Shown here in pieces: positions 3,676 to 39,854 of a stretch of DNA of 64,000 nucleotides. Position numbers and translations under genes: made by a program. Source of the DNA: Malus domestica (taxonomy: Eukaryota; Streptophyta; Magnoliopsida; Rosales; Rosaceae); NCBI RefSeq assembly GCF_042453785.1, contig NC_091668.1, forward strand, positions 25,391,001 through 25,455,000, in the 5' to 3' direction. Below the pieces are notes generated by a model. The model was not told the origin of the DNA, did no database searches, and was given only the letters and a program-made list of their open reading frames with translations. Each line of letters starts with the position of its first letter. Position 1 is the stretch's first letter.

Positions 3676-4614
3676 GGCCATCTCCAATCAAAGGGTCCAG
3701 AGGGCCAGAGGGCCGAAAATAGCCCTAAAACCGTCTCCAACCGAGGGCTAGGCCAGAGGGCTTGGGAATCTGGGAGGGCCCCACGGGATCGGAGAGGGCT
3801 GGAGGGCTGGCTATTTTTTTTTTTAATGTTTCTTATTTCTGTCGGTTATAACCGACAGAAATAATATAATATATATTATTTCTGTCGGTTACAACCGACA
3901 GAAATAACATTTTGAATTCAAACTTCCAACGGCTAGCGCCACTAGCCGTTGTAAATCCTTTTTTTTTTATGAATTTAAACCTTTTTTTTTATGAATTTAA
4001 ACCTTTTTTTTTCTTTTTTTTTCTATAACTTCCTATAACTTCTATTTTACAAAATTTGTTTCAATTTTTTTTTAATTCTATTTTTTTCCTATAACTTATA
4101 TTTTACAAAATTTGGTTCATATTTTTTTCATATAACTTCTATTTTACAAAATTTGTTTCATATTTTTTTTTTAAATTCCATTTTTTCCTATAACTTCTAT
4201 TTCACAAAATTTGTTTCATATTTTTTTTAAATTCTAATTTTTTCCTATAACTTCCTAAGCCATTATACAACATTAAATTAAATTAAGTAACATGAAACAA
4301 CATTAAACAATATGAAACAACATTAAATAACATTAACCGACATAAAAATTATACAACACTAACCAACATGATTTTTAAATAAGTTGTAGTTTTTAAATAA
4401 TAAATTATGTTTGGCCCTATGGCCCTTTGGCCCTCGGTTGGAGACGGTTTTTTTTTACAGGGCTAAAACGAGCCCTCTGGCCCTCTGGCCCTCGGTTGGA
4501 GACGGAGGCAAATATGACCTTGTACTGTTCATTAAAATATTAATATCTTGGAGAATCTTGGAGGGCCAGAGGGTTAAAACGAGCCATCTGGCCAGCCATC
4601 GGTTGGAGATGGCC
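3676..4614. mobile_element. PIF/Harbinger-type MITE, 939 bp, with TAA target duplication
   Basis: The ends are GGCCATCTCCAA at 3676 and its reverse complement TTGGAGATGGCC ending at 4614, flanked by TAA on both sides (3673-3675 and 4615-4617). A 3-bp TWA duplication with G/C-rich ends is the signature of PIF/Harbinger (Tourist-like) elements. The terminal regions are built from repeated GGCCCTCGGTTGGAGACGG-like units, two of them near the right end (about 4426-4444 and 4486-4505) and one inverted near the left. There is no transposase. The middle (3950-4260) is a run of T-rich repeats with recurring CTATAACTTC motifs. Confidence 0.75.
3833..3908. repeat. Nested perfect palindromes inside the Harbinger MITE
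   Basis: Two near-identical palindromes, each reading TTTCTGTCGGTT + ATAACCGACAGAAA or its one-base variant, lie at about 3835-3863 and 3878-3905. Each can form a hairpin alone, and the two can also pair with each other around an AT-rich loop. Confidence 0.7.
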
Positions 4615-4617
4615 TAA

Positions 4618-5440
4618 TGAGGTCGATTACATGGCATTCAATTGTTGGTTGATATTACTGGGAGAGCACAAATCCACAATTTGCAACCCTCTCTGTTACT
4701 CATTTAGAGTCAATCTCACAAAATTTTGACCCAAAAAAGAATGACACGACATGGTGAACTTTTATCTTTTTGAAAATTATAATGGGTTCAATTCTTTTTA
4801 CTGTAAAAAACTTAAAAGAAAGCTGCCAAGCTTATCACTTGGAGAAAATTTGTTTATATTATAATGGATTTATTCATATTTTTTCAAAATTATAATGGGA
4901 ACAATTACAATGGGTTCAGTTCTTACATTTTTATTTTTATTTTTAGGGTTTAGGTTTTTATCAATTCGGGAGTTTCGGTGAATTAGGGATTTTTAAGATT
5001 TTATGGTTATGGTTTCGACATCTATGTAAGAACGTATAAACATAGGAAAATTTTCATATTAGTAAATAATTTTTGTGTGGTGTGTATTCAATTTTTATTT
5101 TTTTAATTTGGGGTTAAATAGTCATTTCATGTTAAAATACATGAATCATTTAATAATAAATATTTATGTTGGCGAGTCAACAATATGTAGTACTAATAAA
5201 AAAATCATATTTTTACTTCCATTTTTATGCCAAAATAGAAATTCTACATCTCGTCCATTAGAGAGCTTGCCAGCCGAAAATGTAAAATACCCGTTTCAAA
5301 GCATGATAAGAGACTTGGGAAGAAAGAAGATGCTCTTAATAATCCATGGGAGATACGATCGATCTTAGCCACTGAAAGTTTTGGATATTTAATTGTTTAG
5401 AAAGTGTGTAATTGTTAGAGATCTAATATCTATGGGTTTT
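4618..5440. other. AT-rich intergenic DNA, nothing recognised
   Basis: Only short reading frames without domains are present. The longest (5075-5368, +, 97 codons) has no recognisable motif and no splice or promoter context. Confidence 0.5.
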
Positions 5441-35149: not shown

Positions 35150-35839
35150 TATCACAAGGGGAGGTCCGTTGCCGGACATGGAAGAAACCGATCGAATAAA
35201 TGCTTCCCAGGATAGCATTGAAGTAGAAAACGGCGGTGGCTGCAGCGGCGACAAACATCGGAACTGTAGAGACCTTGAAAGGAAGAAATGGAGGAATTTA
35301 ACTGGCAGGGCGACCAAGCCATCTTGTATTCTTCTCGCTGCAGTGTCGGATTGCAGAATAATATCACAACACTAAACAAATGTTTTCACTAAAACGCAAC
35401 TTTTTCATTTTAAAAGGTTAACATGTTTGTTTTATTTTATTAAAAAAAAAAACGGGAGAAAAAGATATTTTATTTCAACGTTAAGAAAAGATGTACTGTT
35501 AAACTAAAAATTAGCCGACACATGAGGTAGACAACGATTGCGAAGATGATTTAGAACTCACCAAACATTGTGCAAGACTGACGCTGTTATGTTGTTCCTC
35601 AAAATGAATCGGAATCCCATGAAAGCAGGAGCTGAAAACAACACCTGCAAAAATACCTAATAAGGCATAAAGATAAAGGGAAGTGTTATTGACACTCCAA
35701 AAATTTCATTCTACACTCTTTACAAGTGTATTTTTCTTTCTAAATATAGAACGTTTGAAGTGTAGAATAGGAATTTTGGAGTGCCAATAACAATTCCCAA
35801 GATAAATAGCCTTGTTCTTTTTGTTCGACTTGAAGCCAT
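35150..35839 (-). pseudogene. Broken copy of the small two-membrane-segment gene
   Basis: Homologous to 41107-41575. The start region (ATG at 35839) lacks one base relative to the intact copy within the first ten codons, giving MASSRTKRTR instead of MASESKKKNK. A 121-bp MITE sits in exon 1. The second exon still reads PMFVAAAATAVFYFNAILGS with IYSIGFFHVRQRTS. Both lesions would prevent a normal product. Confidence 0.7.
35678..35798. mobile_element. hAT-type MITE (121 bp) with perfect 8-bp target duplication
   Basis: The ends GGGAAGTGTTATTGACACTC and its near complement GAGTGCCAATAACAATTCCC are flanked by AAGATAAA on both sides (35670-35677 and 35799-35806). The paralogous site in copy 2 (about 41533-41540) reads CAAAGATAAACAGCC with no insertion, an empty-site confirmation. 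The 8-bp duplication points to hAT. Confidence 0.9.
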
Positions 35840-35914: not shown

Positions 35915-36061
35915 ATTTCTGTGGCTACATTTGAATTAGCTCAGAGGCACTCCTTTTGTGTAACAAGAGACTTGACGCCCCCAAGTCATGTATTCTCACT
36001 AGTTTGGCCCCAAGTCATGTATTTTCACTAGTTTGGCCTGCTGTCGAATTTCAAGCGTTTT

Positions 36062-36322
36062 TGTTATGACCGAAGTTATTACTGAGGTTTTATGCTTTAT
36101 TACTGTGAGGAATTTGTTAATATGCCAGCTAGCATTTAAAAGTGTAGAGGCTGTATAAAAGGAGCGCAGCTCCCTCAAATGTATTAGATCAAAATTTACA
36201 AAAAGAAATTAAACACAAAAATATTTGGAGTTGTGCTTCTTCTTCTCTCCTTCTCTCTTCTTCCATAGCTTTCTTGTGCTACTTACAGGTTGATTAAGGG
36301 AATTGAGAATTGGATCATATCA
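36062..36322 (+). repeat. 5' LTR of the gene-carrying element
   Basis: 261 bp. It differs from the 3' LTR (39319-39566) by roughly twenty substitutions plus small indels, so the element is considerably older than the Copia element at 11628. Confidence 0.85.
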
Positions 36323-36331
36323 ATGGTATCA

Positions 36332-36979
36332 TCCTTCTCGAATCCTGGTTTCCCTCCTGTGCACACCCACCCGACCCGTCTTCCTACCATGGATGCACAC
36401 CTCTCTGCTGCAATCGACTCATTTGAAGCTTCGATGCGTGCTGCGATCCGTGATGCGATCCGCGAAGCTATGGATTCTGCACTCACAGCCATTCACAAGG
36501 CTGTGAATCTTGTACTCGTCGAAATCCGCAATGACCTTGCTCAGTTACACCGTGACTTGGCTCTCGACGTTGCGGGAGATTCTGATCCAGCCTCGACGTG
36601 TTCTGAGGAAGCTGCATCGATCGAGGTCGGTCACCAAAAACCTCACAACGGAGACGGCAACCCACTCCGAATTTCGTCGACAATCCACGACCATTCCATT
36701 CCACCATTGCTCTCATCTTCACCGATGTTGCGAGCACTAGCAAATTCAACCGTCAAGCCACACTCGAACAAGTTTGCTGCATCTACAGTCTTGCTTCCGG
36801 AATCGAAGACGATGATCTCTGCTCCGCAGCTACTCCATAAGCACTTGTTCTCCGATAGTACGAAAACTAGACTTGAGGTAGTTCTTAATTTAAGTATCAT
36901 TTCAGCAACTCCGAAGGCTAAGGTCCCTTCTCTTATGACTGATAACTATGGTGCATACGTAAAAGATAAATTTGGATGA
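36332..36979 (+). pseudogene. Leader-region frame of the retroelement, function unknown
   Basis: The open frame around 36290-36979 has an alanine-rich helical part (MDAHLSAAIDSFEASMRAAI, then RDAIREAMDSALTAIHKAV). A low-complexity S/P-rich part follows, ending VKDKFG and a stop. The helical part may be a rudimentary Gag-like or coiled-coil region, but no known Gag motif or zinc knuckle is seen. Its start overlaps the LTR edge, so the most natural start is the Met at about 36392. Confidence 0.4.
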
Positions 36980-37766
36980 GTTAATTGGTATCTTGTGGGT
37001 AAGTCTGTGAAGAAGGATCTGTGTGCATCGACCCTGTTTGATGAAATGTCTAACAGACAGGGTGACGAAAATATGGGAACACTCTTCAATTTCATTTACT
37101 ATCTCATACATCACCTGCAAAGGCTTATTCCTTGTCATATCACCTCCAATCTTAATAGTGCTTGTGCAAATCAGTTGACTATATATGAGCCATCCCTCTA
37201 CGTCTATGTTGCATCTCAATCATTGTGGAGCAATCTGGATGCCTTGGTATATTTGAAGCTCTTGATATATGGTTATTTAGCTCTTTACTTGTTAGGGTCC
37301 TGCATCAATAACAGTATTATGAATACTCTTAGTGGAACAGTAATTGAATATAGTTGTGAATCATGTCCAAGGGTTCAGGTCATCCCTAACCAGTGGGTTG
37401 CATATGTGCAACTTCGCTAGCATGTTTCTCACAGATGTCGGTTTTCCTATCTGGAGCAGCTGATCTTGAAACTTAGTTTTGCTGCTAGTGCCATATGGAT
37501 TAAACAAATGGTTAAAGAAATTTCTTATGAAGAAAAAGCTAATGTATCCCACGTTGAGATCAAGATGATTGAAAGCAAAGGCTTAGATGAAAAATATTCC
37601 CCTGTAGACATTGTGATGTTTCGATTAGCTAAAAGCACGGTTGGCATAAATCAAACTACACACTCTGTTGGTTTGGATGATATTGAGTTAGATGCCCAGG
37701 GTGATTTGAGTGGGCATCCTAGCAGCAAAGTACCCATAGAAGAAAACCTTGTTTAAGTACCTATTA
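36980..37766 (+). other. Unidentified retroelement interior, several short frames
   Basis: The frames at 36995-37420 and 37466-37756 show coding-like composition (for example YEEKANVSHVEIKMIESKGL and NQTTHSVGLDDIELDAQG) but no recognised family. They may be further captured host sequence, because the next segment is. Confidence 0.4.
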
Positions 37767-38260
37767 ACTTGGTTTATGATGCTGGTTTATTTTACTTGGG
37801 AAACACCTATTATATGAACTCCACCATACATTTTCTGCATTCTGTTCCAGAGTTGAAATCAGCTTTGATCAAGTATTCTCATTTTGAAAGAAATGATGGG
37901 GGGGATCAAACTTCTCATAGGCTGAATATTACAGCTTGTGCTTTAATTAGTGAATTGGATAAAGGTATCAAGGCTATGGCACCTGTGCAATTTTGGATGG
38001 TATTGCTCAACAAGTACCCTCATTTTGGTCAGCAATATAACAATATCTTCATGCAACAGGATGTGAAAGAATGTTGGTCACAACTTTTATACACCCTTTC
38101 TCATTCTCTACGATAGTCAGGTTCTAGTGAAAGTCCAAACTCTGTTAAAGCCCTTTTCGGCATTGAACTTGTTAGCATGGTGTATTGCATAGAAAGTGGG
38201 GAAAATGGCTCAGGGTTAGTTCAATCTTTTGAGGGCCACATATCACATGAAGTGAAACAT
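37767..38260 (+). pseudogene. Captured, intron-less fragment of a UBP6/7-type ubiquitin-specific protease
   Basis: The frame reads AGLFYLGNTYYMNSTIHFLH, then SVPELKSALIKYSH, SELDKGIKAMAPVQFWMVLL, QQDVKECWSQLLYTLSHSLR, a stop, and VKALFGIELVSMVYC. It follows the catalytic start of plant UBP6/UBP7 (proteasome-associated deubiquitinases) residue by residue in my memory. The Cys box is changed: the codon at 37808-37810 is TAT (Tyr) where the nucleophilic Cys is expected. The following QQD.EECW-type box is largely kept. About 150 codons run without introns although UBP6/7 genes have many, so the source was probably an mRNA. It is catalytically dead. Confidence 0.8.
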
Positions 38261-38545
38261 TTACAATGTCCATATTCTTGTGAATTTTTGCTTGAGTCAA
38301 TTATGGCTTGCACTTTAACGAAGCTTGTTTTGAGATTGGAGGAGATTTAGCCTTCAAAGGTTGAAGTGAACAAGGTTGAACTTATAGAAATAGATTGGAC
38401 CTTCAAATTTGATAAGAAAATCATGCCAAAAAAGGGTAGCGGTCATGTTGTGCTAATTGTTCAGAGACATCACTTTGCTTCCTACTTGGAAAGGGAATGG
38501 CAGTGCTTAACCTATGATATTCAAGTAGCAAATGTGTTGATTGGA
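38261..38545 (+). other. Unassigned captured segment between the UBP and ATPase parts
   Basis: It includes frames HISHEVKHLQCPYSCEFLLE and, from 38366, ELIEIDWTFKFDKKIMPKKG with VVLIVQRHHFASYLEREWQC. The first words resemble a UBP6 region (ISHEVNHL-type); the rest was not recognised. Stops at 38348 and elsewhere. Confidence 0.4.
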
Positions 38546-39300
38546 GCTTATGATAAAACATGGACCATGACTACAAACCAGATGGCAGTGGCAAAACTTG
38601 TAGCTTGGAGTCCTAGGCCTATTATACTACTGAAGTTTAGGGTGGATGGAATTATATGCAATCCACATGATGGTGAAATTCTTAACTAGCCAACTAGTCA
38701 AATGGATGCTAATCTTCAAATGATCGCAAAGGTAGCTACTTTCTACAATAATCCTAGCATTAAACAAGCAGAAAAGAAGTATGTTGCCCATGGAATGCCT
38801 ACTGAGGCAGCTCCAAAGTTTTTAGTTGAGAAGATGGTCGTCCTTTCTGAAGAGTCCAAGGGTGTGGAATCATCAAATGGAAGGGATTTTTTTGGTTGTT
38901 GCCATAAGTGGAGTGAATTTGAACGCCGAATTGCAACCCTTGAGTTTGATCGCGATAAGAAATCCACGGGTGTAATTGTCAACTCTGTTTTAGGGGAGGA
39001 GTCATTGCTAGTGAAGGGTGTTGTAGAGAATTTGCTTGAGAAAAGCACTAAGGTTCAGTTGCTTGATGGCACTGTTGTACCACTGGATGATAGCTCAAGG
39101 AACTATATCGTGCAAGCCCTTCATGAGATGTCAACTAGTGCTTTGAAACCACTAAATGATTCACCTGTTTTGAAACTTGCTGATACTGGGATTGCAATGG
39201 GCATATCTAGAATTGAGAACATGACCATCACAAGGGAACGTGTTGCTGCTTTCAAACAAGTTCCCACATCCAAATTTTTTAGCCTTGTGGACAAGGCTAA
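38546..39300 (+). pseudogene. Captured, intron-less fragment of an ER-type Ca2+-ATPase (ECA type)
   Basis: YDKTWTMTTNQMAVAKLVAW at 38549 on corresponds to the P-type ATPase phosphorylation motif DKTGTLT. The Asp codon (38552-38554) is kept, but Gly is Trp and Leu is Met. Next come DANLQMIAKVATFYNNPSIK, MPTEAAPKFLVEKM, ATLEFDRDKKSTGVIVNS, VKGVVENLLEKSTKVQLLDG and LHEMSTSALKPL, all matching the nucleotide-binding loop of plant P2A ATPases. It then jumps directly to NDSPVLKLADTGIAMGIS, the hinge motif that normally lies far downstream, so a large internal piece is missing. Stop at 38687. Not a functional pump. Confidence 0.8.
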
Positions 39301-39854
39301 TTTTCAAGGGGGAAGTATTGTTATGACCGAAGTTATTATTGAGGTTTTATGCTTTATTACTGTGAGGAATTTGTTAATATGCCAGCTGACGTTTAAAAGT
39401 ATAGAGGCTGTATAAAAGGAGTGCAGCTCCCTCAAATGTATCAAATCAGAATTTACAAAAAGAAATTAAACACAAAAATAATTGGAGCTTTGCTCCTTCT
39501 CTCCTTCCCTCTTCTTCCGTAGCTTTCTTGTGCTACTTGCAAGTTATTGAGAATTGGATCGTATCAGTTTTATTTGTTTATTTGAATTTGGAGGTAATTA
39601 TATTTCTTCTCTGTCATGCATGGCGCCCAAGTTCTCCAAACCCTCTAAATATGGGTTGTTTGTAATAGTTTAGCATAATTTAGGTAACTTTGATTTTTAA
39701 TTTATTTAGATTAATTTGGTTGTAATTTAGGTAACTTAATTTGGGGGATTGTTAAATTTTTGTTAATTAATTCGAACCATCTCTGCAATTAACTCATTTA
39801 TTATAGGAATGCAGTTTTTGAATTGTAGTTAGGGTTGAATACCTACTATAATGG

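Follow-up and report, generated by a model that had tools for sequence, protein, structure and literature searches.

A Non-Autonomous LTR Retroelement Family of Apple With Pieces of Host Genes in One Reading Frame

The Element and Its Cargo

This report concerns a long terminal repeat (LTR) retroelement of apple (Malus domestica) and its sister elements. It lies at positions 36062–39566 of a 64,000-nucleotide stretch of DNA, referred to here as the window (contig C8, 25391001–25455000, in an assembly of 651 Mb and 19 contigs; C-numbers denote contigs, and elements are named after the contig that carries them). The element is non-autonomous and defective. Repeat comparison delimits a 5′ LTR of 261 bp that opens with TG and closes with CA (36062–36322, plus strand) and a 3′ LTR of 248 bp (39319–39566, plus strand). 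They are flanked by two copies of the target site duplication GTTTT, read directly in the sequence at 36057–36061 and 39567–39571 (no strand assigned). The two LTRs differ at 18 of 248 aligned sites, plus 13 gap columns, which corresponds to a K80 distance of 0.078. At the inner edge of the 5′ LTR (36323–36331, plus strand), an ATG start codon (36323–36325) overlaps the primer-site-like stretch TGGTATCA (36324–36331), which we take to be complementary to initiator tRNA-Met. The ATG opens a leader (MVSSFSNPGFP..., 36323–37079, plus strand, frame 0) that sequence comparison places in the sister elements as well and that is presumably the gag side of an ancestral element. At the opposite end (39276–39318, plus strand), a conserved tail containing SLVDKANFQGGSIVM is followed by the polypurine tract AAGGGGGAAG (39306–39315), and the frame continues into the 3′ LTR. 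Pfam searches at E-values up to 0.1 found no reverse transcriptase (RT) or integrase family in the seven plus-strand open reading frames (ORFs) of the element, and no RT or integrase domain appeared in 14 sister-element ORFs searched against Pfam. A first-pass annotation, made from the sequence alone, had named the two LTRs, the duplication, the primer-site-like stretch, the polypurine tract and the absence of pol, and all of these features are where it had placed them, with no pol domain in the seven ORFs.

Between leader and tail, the interior holds pieces of at least six host genes, namely NMD3, an unnamed gene B, UBP6/7, coatomer-beta, a probable P5A ATPase and ECA, all on the plus strand. 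Donors were found by searching the apple genome itself, and donor exon maps were then drawn. The first piece, from NMD3 (37347–37512), was recognized by Pfam on the C11 copy and by genome search (donor C4:664935–665091); it also matches places on C3 that resemble decayed copies. It is followed by the gene B piece (37507–37746; donor C4:2376028–2376372, from genome search), which contains an internal in-frame jump of 108 nt. No convincing domain was found in gene B. The UBP6/7 (USP14-like) piece (37771–38265) joins six exon segments with donors at C9:17217.4–17218.8 kb and C17:20030.1–20031.5 kb, both on the minus strand. Next come a coatomer-beta piece (38280–38375; donors C9:12359434–12359529 and C17:13327199–13327292, both minus), named because the beta-COP piece in the C9 element matches it at 74%, and two joined exons of what we take to be a P5A-type ATPase (38367–38504; donors C15:52278.7–52279.6 kb and C8:28277.2–28278.2 kb, both minus), for which one weak PDB match was obtained (E 0.0095). 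The last piece, from an ECA-type Ca2+-ATPase (38552–39217; donors C4:19660.8–19663.1 kb and C12:19626–19627.8 kb, both minus), joins five exon segments with an in-frame internal jump near 39145. A weak host match at 37110–37246 (plus strand; C2:828637–828761, 69%) lies in the same frame and was left out of scoring. The stretches to which no donor is assigned include 37247–37346, 38505–38551 and 39218–39275.

The first-pass annotation had described pieces of two or more host genes. Its idea of a multi-gene cargo was correct, and its count was too low, as four of the six located donors had been missed. The two frames that it did name have significant Pfam matches (UCH at E 2.3e-12 for UBP6/7; Cation_ATPase at E 3.8e-9 for ECA). 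Their description as intron-free is borne out by the donor exons on C9/C17 and C4/C12, which carry introns absent from the element, and the internal segment reported as lost from the ATPase part corresponds to the jump at about 39145. Of the coding-like stretches left without a name, 37347–37746 is in part NMD3 and gene B and 38280–38504 is coatomer-beta and the probable P5A piece, while most of 36980–37346 has no assigned source beyond leader sequence and the one weak match. The family of sister elements and the single frame that runs through the pieces had also gone unnoticed.

A Family With Changing Cargo

The window element belongs to a family of the apple/pear lineage, some of whose insertions are recent. 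The search for copies with the same LTRs and cargo, which the first-pass annotation had proposed, found three further copies (C15a, C11 and C5), so that the four copies lie on four chromosomes; in pairs they are 91–93% identical over the cargo. Five other elements (C16, C1, C9, C15b and C10) have LTRs and leader in common with the window element and carry other cargo. For example, the C9 element contains pieces of coatomer-beta, PPR, ankyrin and HEAT genes, and the C15b element contains IST1, kinesin, an ARMT1-like gene (named from a Pfam match at locus L013), PPR and HEAT, whereas the C16 and C1 elements carry gene B, RanGAP, DUF1664 and DUF7798. Further loci carry pieces of pyruvate kinase or Sec7/BIG. 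Modules recur in new combinations, as at locus L012, where IST1 stands with ECA. Coatomer-beta was apparently taken up twice from different paralogues, namely those on C9/C17 by the window element (38280–38375) and those on C4/C13 by the C9 element. Two candidate pieces were discarded: a 37-nt NMD3 match in C16, which is probably DUF1664 sequence, and a weak ECH_2 match in C15b, which fell below the cut-off. A PDB search with the C16 ORF gave no match.

The nine elements examined are 3,451–4,637 bp long, with LTRs of about 250–290 bp. All nine possess direct terminal repeats of the TG...CA form, and eight have exact 5-bp target duplications, with agreement at only three of five bases in C11. 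The stretch TGGTATCA stands one base past the LTR in eight elements and is replaced by TGGTACCA in C15b; in all nine, an ATG overlaps the primer-site-like stretch at the LTR edge. A purine tract precedes the 3′ LTR in the window copy and is present at most of the other 3′ LTRs inspected. ORFs in the sister copies reach 811 codons. LTR divergence (K80) ranges from 0.0076 to 0.083, with the lowest values in C9 (0.0076) and C16 (0.0077), and some sister LTR pairs are about 99% identical. Assumed rates of 4e-9 to 1.3e-8 changes per site per year would put the age of the window copy at about 3–10 million years and that of the C16 and C9 copies at less than 1 million. A wider list of family places (70 places, 65 loci) is incomplete and may include donor paralogues, and it was not used as an element count.

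Several neighbouring features were recorded at these loci. In the C5 copy (locus L014, about 4179–5299), an insertion of about 1.1 kb lies between 8-bp repeats of element sequence, suggesting a DNA transposon. At loci L017 and L018 (C7:31.69–31.71 Mb), a C16-type copy is apparently split by other LTR elements, and its right part retains an open frame of 728 codons into the 3′ LTR. Just upstream of the window element (35678–35798), an inverted repeat with 40-nt arms, 85% complementary and separated by 41 nt, forms a MITE-like hairpin.

The family is also visible in public protein records. Aligned over 60% of its length, the ORF of the C16 element is up to 98% identical to proteins of Malus domestica, and proteins of Malus and Pyrus show the same architecture of leader, pieces and tail in parts. 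For example, Malus record P0126 (1,020 aa) begins like the leader and extends as far as the tail, and Pyrus record P0024 contains the C9 mosaic with the same end point. Other pieces seen in Malus and Pyrus records derive from cyclin, SHMT, ribosomal protein L3 and beta-amylase. Since such records are gene models, their openness was not counted as evidence. Pyrus records P0020, P0022, P0023, P0024, P0033 and P0129, which bear host-gene names (RanGAP2-like, beta-amylase, coatomer-beta-like, chaperonin 60, CHD1-like), resemble element mosaics and would then be misnamed annotations.

One Reading Frame Across the Pieces

The ORF starts at the ATG on the edge between the LTR and the primer-site-like stretch; in several copies, the window copy and C16 among them, it extends into the 3′ LTR. 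In the window copy, the leader, NMD3, both gene B pieces, the scored UBP exons, coatomer-beta, P5A, the five ECA segments and the tail all lie in frame 0. For scoring, the native frame was taken as the open frame of the donor exons, supported by Pfam or PDB matches where present, and carried onto the element; the jumps counted are those from one donor to another and those that link non-adjacent parts of a single donor. Because of weak matches or ambiguous frames, pieces A, E and F were left out. All of the 25 jumps scored (nine in the window element, four in C9, eight in C15b and four in C16) are in the sense direction. The frame is kept in the reference copy at 22 of them and through a sister copy at two more, while one, from P5A to ECA, carries a caveat discussed below. 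In the two rescued cases, the PPR-to-ankyrin jump of C9 is in frame without a gap in sister copy L046, and the PPR-to-HEAT jump of C15b likewise in L062, which marks the C15b mismatch as private. If frames were random and jumps independent, 25 in-frame jumps would have a chance of about 1e-11, a figure that serves only as a guide, given that leader and tail junctions may share history. Every frameshift seen in the coatomer-beta piece of the C9 family is private. The PPR donor located at L049 (C14:23110700–23111300) has a frameshift of its own and no open frame; the real donor may therefore be a homeologue, such as that on C6.

Shared and Private Changes

Differences among the four copies of the window family are nearly flat over codon positions and give no sign of protein-level selection after insertion. 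For this reason, changes were divided into shared ones, in which all copies agree against the donor or donors, and private ones, in which one copy differs from the rest. The comparison comprised 1,154 donor-aligned codons in three families with three to four copies each. Segments U3, U5 and U6 of UBP, the piece bCOPa (two copies only), C15b (too few copies) and the trimmed P5A end were excluded, patterns other than these, for example two copies against two, were disregarded, and five private changes away from a stop were set aside.

The 290 shared changes comprise 200 replacements, 88 silent changes and two nominal stops. Both of the latter are codons hit twice that read as sense in each of the copies, and nowhere do all copies have a stop at one codon. 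With these base changes distributed at random, 14.8 stops would be expected, and the minimum over 2000 simulations was 5. The 275 private changes, in contrast, include 23 stops (15.0 expected) besides 195 replacements and 57 silent changes, and the difference in stops between the two classes is significant even with the two nominal stops included (Fisher's test, 4.5e-6). The shared ratio of replacement to silent changes is 2.27 against an expected 2.66, which indicates that any amino-acid constraint is weak at most. Between families, the leader shows a median dN/dS of 0.95 (range 0.39–1.86) over about 110 codons in 41 pairs, which are non-independent. Among scored internal indels, both shared ones are multiples of three, whereas seven of nine private ones are frameshifts; two that belong to neither class (one frameshift and one multiple of three) were left out. 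The absence of shared stops together with near-neutral amino-acid change indicates that the ORF was kept open while the element was mobile, almost regardless of its sequence.

Origin of the Cargo From Spliced RNA

Four elements (window, C9, C15b and C16) were used to test how segments from the same donor are joined. Of 28 such joins, 21 are consistent with excision of a GT-AG intron to within a base of the best break (eight in the window element, four in C9, six in C15b and three in C16); one intron recurs in two elements, leaving 20 distinct cases. The remaining seven comprise three internal jumps in a gene, two of them in the window element and one in C15b, and four joins assigned to neither kind. 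The first-pass annotation had proposed that junctions be checked against exon–exon borders. Same-donor joins do fall mostly at such borders, but the alignable gene-to-gene junctions sit inside exons instead. Four gene-to-gene junctions bear 4–6 nt (ATGG, AAGG, CGAAAA and GACGC) common to both donors and the element, and two within-gene joins bear CATG and TGTG; the remaining junctions lack such matches. Junctions inside exons, some of them at matches of 4–6 nt, are as predicted for template switching between RNAs; the pattern is what such switching could leave, although the matches come without a control comparison. The earlier suggestion that spliced host mRNA was captured in the manner of the maize element Bs1 thus agrees with the LTRs, the duplication, the exon-only cargo, the short junction matches and the internal jump in ECA.

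Proposed Mechanism and Alternatives

Exon-only cargo, the sense strand, a common frame, the lack of stops before insertion, near-neutral amino-acid change and recent insertions are all observed. On this basis, we consider it highly probable that spliced host mRNAs were captured as in Bs1 and then passed through a filter that admits frame-preserving recombinants only; the cause of the filter we infer. Host mRNA may have been packaged together with element RNA, and template switching during reverse transcription would then bring in pieces of host genes. Reverse transcription would be driven in trans by an autonomous element, perhaps of the Ty3/gypsy type. If translation of the element RNA was required along its whole length, only recombinants with an open frame would have kept amplifying. 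Nonsense-mediated mRNA decay in plants senses long 3′ untranslated regions, and the likeliest cause of the filter would be surveillance that destroys or silences any RNA in which an early stop is followed by a long untranslated tail; alternatively, the leader-fusion product itself could be used. Given a frame filter, the element would become an in-frame joiner of host gene pieces.

The proposal of a Ty3/gypsy helper comes from a gag-like stretch of 78 aa in the C1 element, which resembles many long gag-pol-like ORFs. Searched against the genome, with 150 of 319 candidates scored, it found itself, two relatives at 1.9e-32 and 2.8e-30, and then 147 others from 1.1e-21. Several of its matches lie in open frames of about 1,500 aa resembling gag-pol. 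The stretch has no Pfam match. A gag ORF at locus L023, considered as a relative, was rejected for lack of a match. At locus L026 (4826–6004), an ORF with the RT domain PF00078 lies near an element match and probably belongs to another retroelement.

Several observations weigh against capture followed by a frame filter. No autonomous partner was found in the genome comparisons made, the leader has no gag match in Pfam, and the window copy is broken by six in-frame stops. At the P5A-to-ECA jump, a shared 2-nt insertion shifts the last few P5A codons off their native frame, with ECA back in frame. In three C9-type copies, a common +1 change in a T run within the final ~15 codons ahead of the tail brings the stop to a point a few codons short of the purine tract, where late termination would do little harm; C15b, which shares this junction, stays in frame. 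Between DUF1664 and DUF7798, the C10 copy is shifted by one base that C16 and a copy on C7 lack, so that the shift is probably private; C1 is deleted at this spot, and C10 was left out of scoring. As for the division of changes, some shared differences arose in donors, where stops are also barred, the private class includes some changes from before insertion, and pieces and pairs are non-independent. In addition, the shared ratio of replacement to silent changes lies below the private one (2.27 versus 3.42, Fisher p 0.041); changes on the donor side may account for this, as may some protein-level constraint acting on the element or the donor.

The alternative that fares best concerns the filter alone: the frame may have been kept open because the element uses a fusion protein consisting of a gag-like leader and a tolerated tail, for example for packaging in cis, rather than because of RNA destruction. 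The leader and the ATG at the LTR edge, common to all nine elements, and the survival of the gag-like stretch in the C1 element and two relatives speak for this. However, the leader dN/dS near 1 between families does not, and a function of the leader alone would not require hundreds of open cargo codons; we regard this cause as possible but rather unlikely. Another reading holds that the elements are domesticated chimeric host genes under protein-level selection. It could appeal to the long open frames, to the Malus and Pyrus gene models of about 460–1,100 aa and to the slightly lower shared ratio of replacement to silent changes, yet it conflicts with the nearly flat codon positions among the four window-family copies, with 23 private stops and 7 private frameshifts, with a replacement rate near neutral even before insertion, and with cargo that varies among sister elements. 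We therefore judge domestication quite improbable. Ordinary transduction of the Bs1 type, with the common frame arising by chance or as a by-product of host coding sequence, would account for long open stretches within a piece, since captured coding sequence is free of stops in its own frame, but it leaves unexplained both the keeping of frame at the scored jumps and the missing stops among 290 shared changes, and is thus highly improbable. Finally, a cluster of processed pseudogenes or an assembly artefact mimicking an LTR element is scarcely credible: exon-only host sequence does resemble processed pseudogenes, but against this reading, exact 5-bp duplications flank the LTR pairs at eight of nine sites, the four copies occupy as many chromosomes, and independent records from Malus and Pyrus contain relatives.

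Related Systems and Significance

The closest known case is Bs1, an LTR element with exon-only pieces of proton ATPase, xylan endohydrolase and beta-1,3-glucanase genes and a chimeric ORF, as outlined in two sources (PMC13317346; PMC4717578). One of these, a review, presents Bs1 as three transductions in one element, discusses abnormal template switching for other elements, and does not contain the term "in-frame" in its main text (PMC13317346). The apple element is likened to Bs1 by description, not by sequence, through its LTRs, its exon-only pieces of several host genes and its chimeric ORF. Unlike the three transductions in a single element, the apple family comprises sister elements with differing mosaics from about fifteen donor families, and its frame and stop statistics show that the ORF stayed open during mobility. 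What is new here is that all 25 jumps are in sense and in the frame of the leader, with the qualifications given above for three of them, and that no real stop is shared.

In oncogene-transducing retroviruses (gag-onc), recombination during reverse transcription fuses host mRNA in the sense direction to a leader from the gag side, and the frame is often kept. The apple element is alike in the fusion of sense host pieces to a leader that is presumably gag-side, but its family is found in a plant, carries several genes per element and gives no evidence that the cargo benefits the element. Terminal-repeat retrotransposons in miniature (TRIMs) are usually under 1.5 kb and have a non-coding interior; the window element at 3.5 kb, with ORFs of up to 811 codons in sister copies, falls outside the class. 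TRIMs with gene pieces, for example in soybean, are described as small non-autonomous LTR elements with captured exons (PMC4717578). The apple elements differ from these in size, in their LTRs of about 250–290 bp and in an interior that is one long ORF. Pack-MULEs and gene-carrying Helitrons likewise combine pieces of several genes in one mobile element (PMC4717578). However, those are DNA transposons that capture genomic DNA with its introns, whereas the apple elements have LTRs and lack the donor introns; no search was aimed at Helitron ends. Literature searches of an open-access library found no paper naming this apple/pear family, which is not proof that it is unpublished.

In the sources cited here, plant LTR elements that capture host genes are described mainly as single cases or as genome-wide counts. 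With one family, many captures and located donors, the mechanism becomes measurable through junction matches, frame, orientation and intron removal. Telling stop avoidance apart from amino-acid constraint also makes it possible to test whether a mobile RNA has to be translated throughout. The result also bears on annotation, since Pyrus entries called chaperonin 60, coatomer-beta-like, RanGAP2-like or beta-amylase resemble element mosaics. More tentatively, as a proposal that may fail about as easily as it may hold, RNA surveillance or dependence on translation could act as a frame filter on a retroelement, such that only in-frame host pieces survive mobilisation. If this is true, the lack of stops combined with neutral amino-acid change would be a signature of such a filter in any genome, and a parasite with no need of its own protein sequence would be a continuing generator of in-frame multi-gene chimeric proteins. 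The family, with its differing mosaics, may turn host genes into new combined genes.

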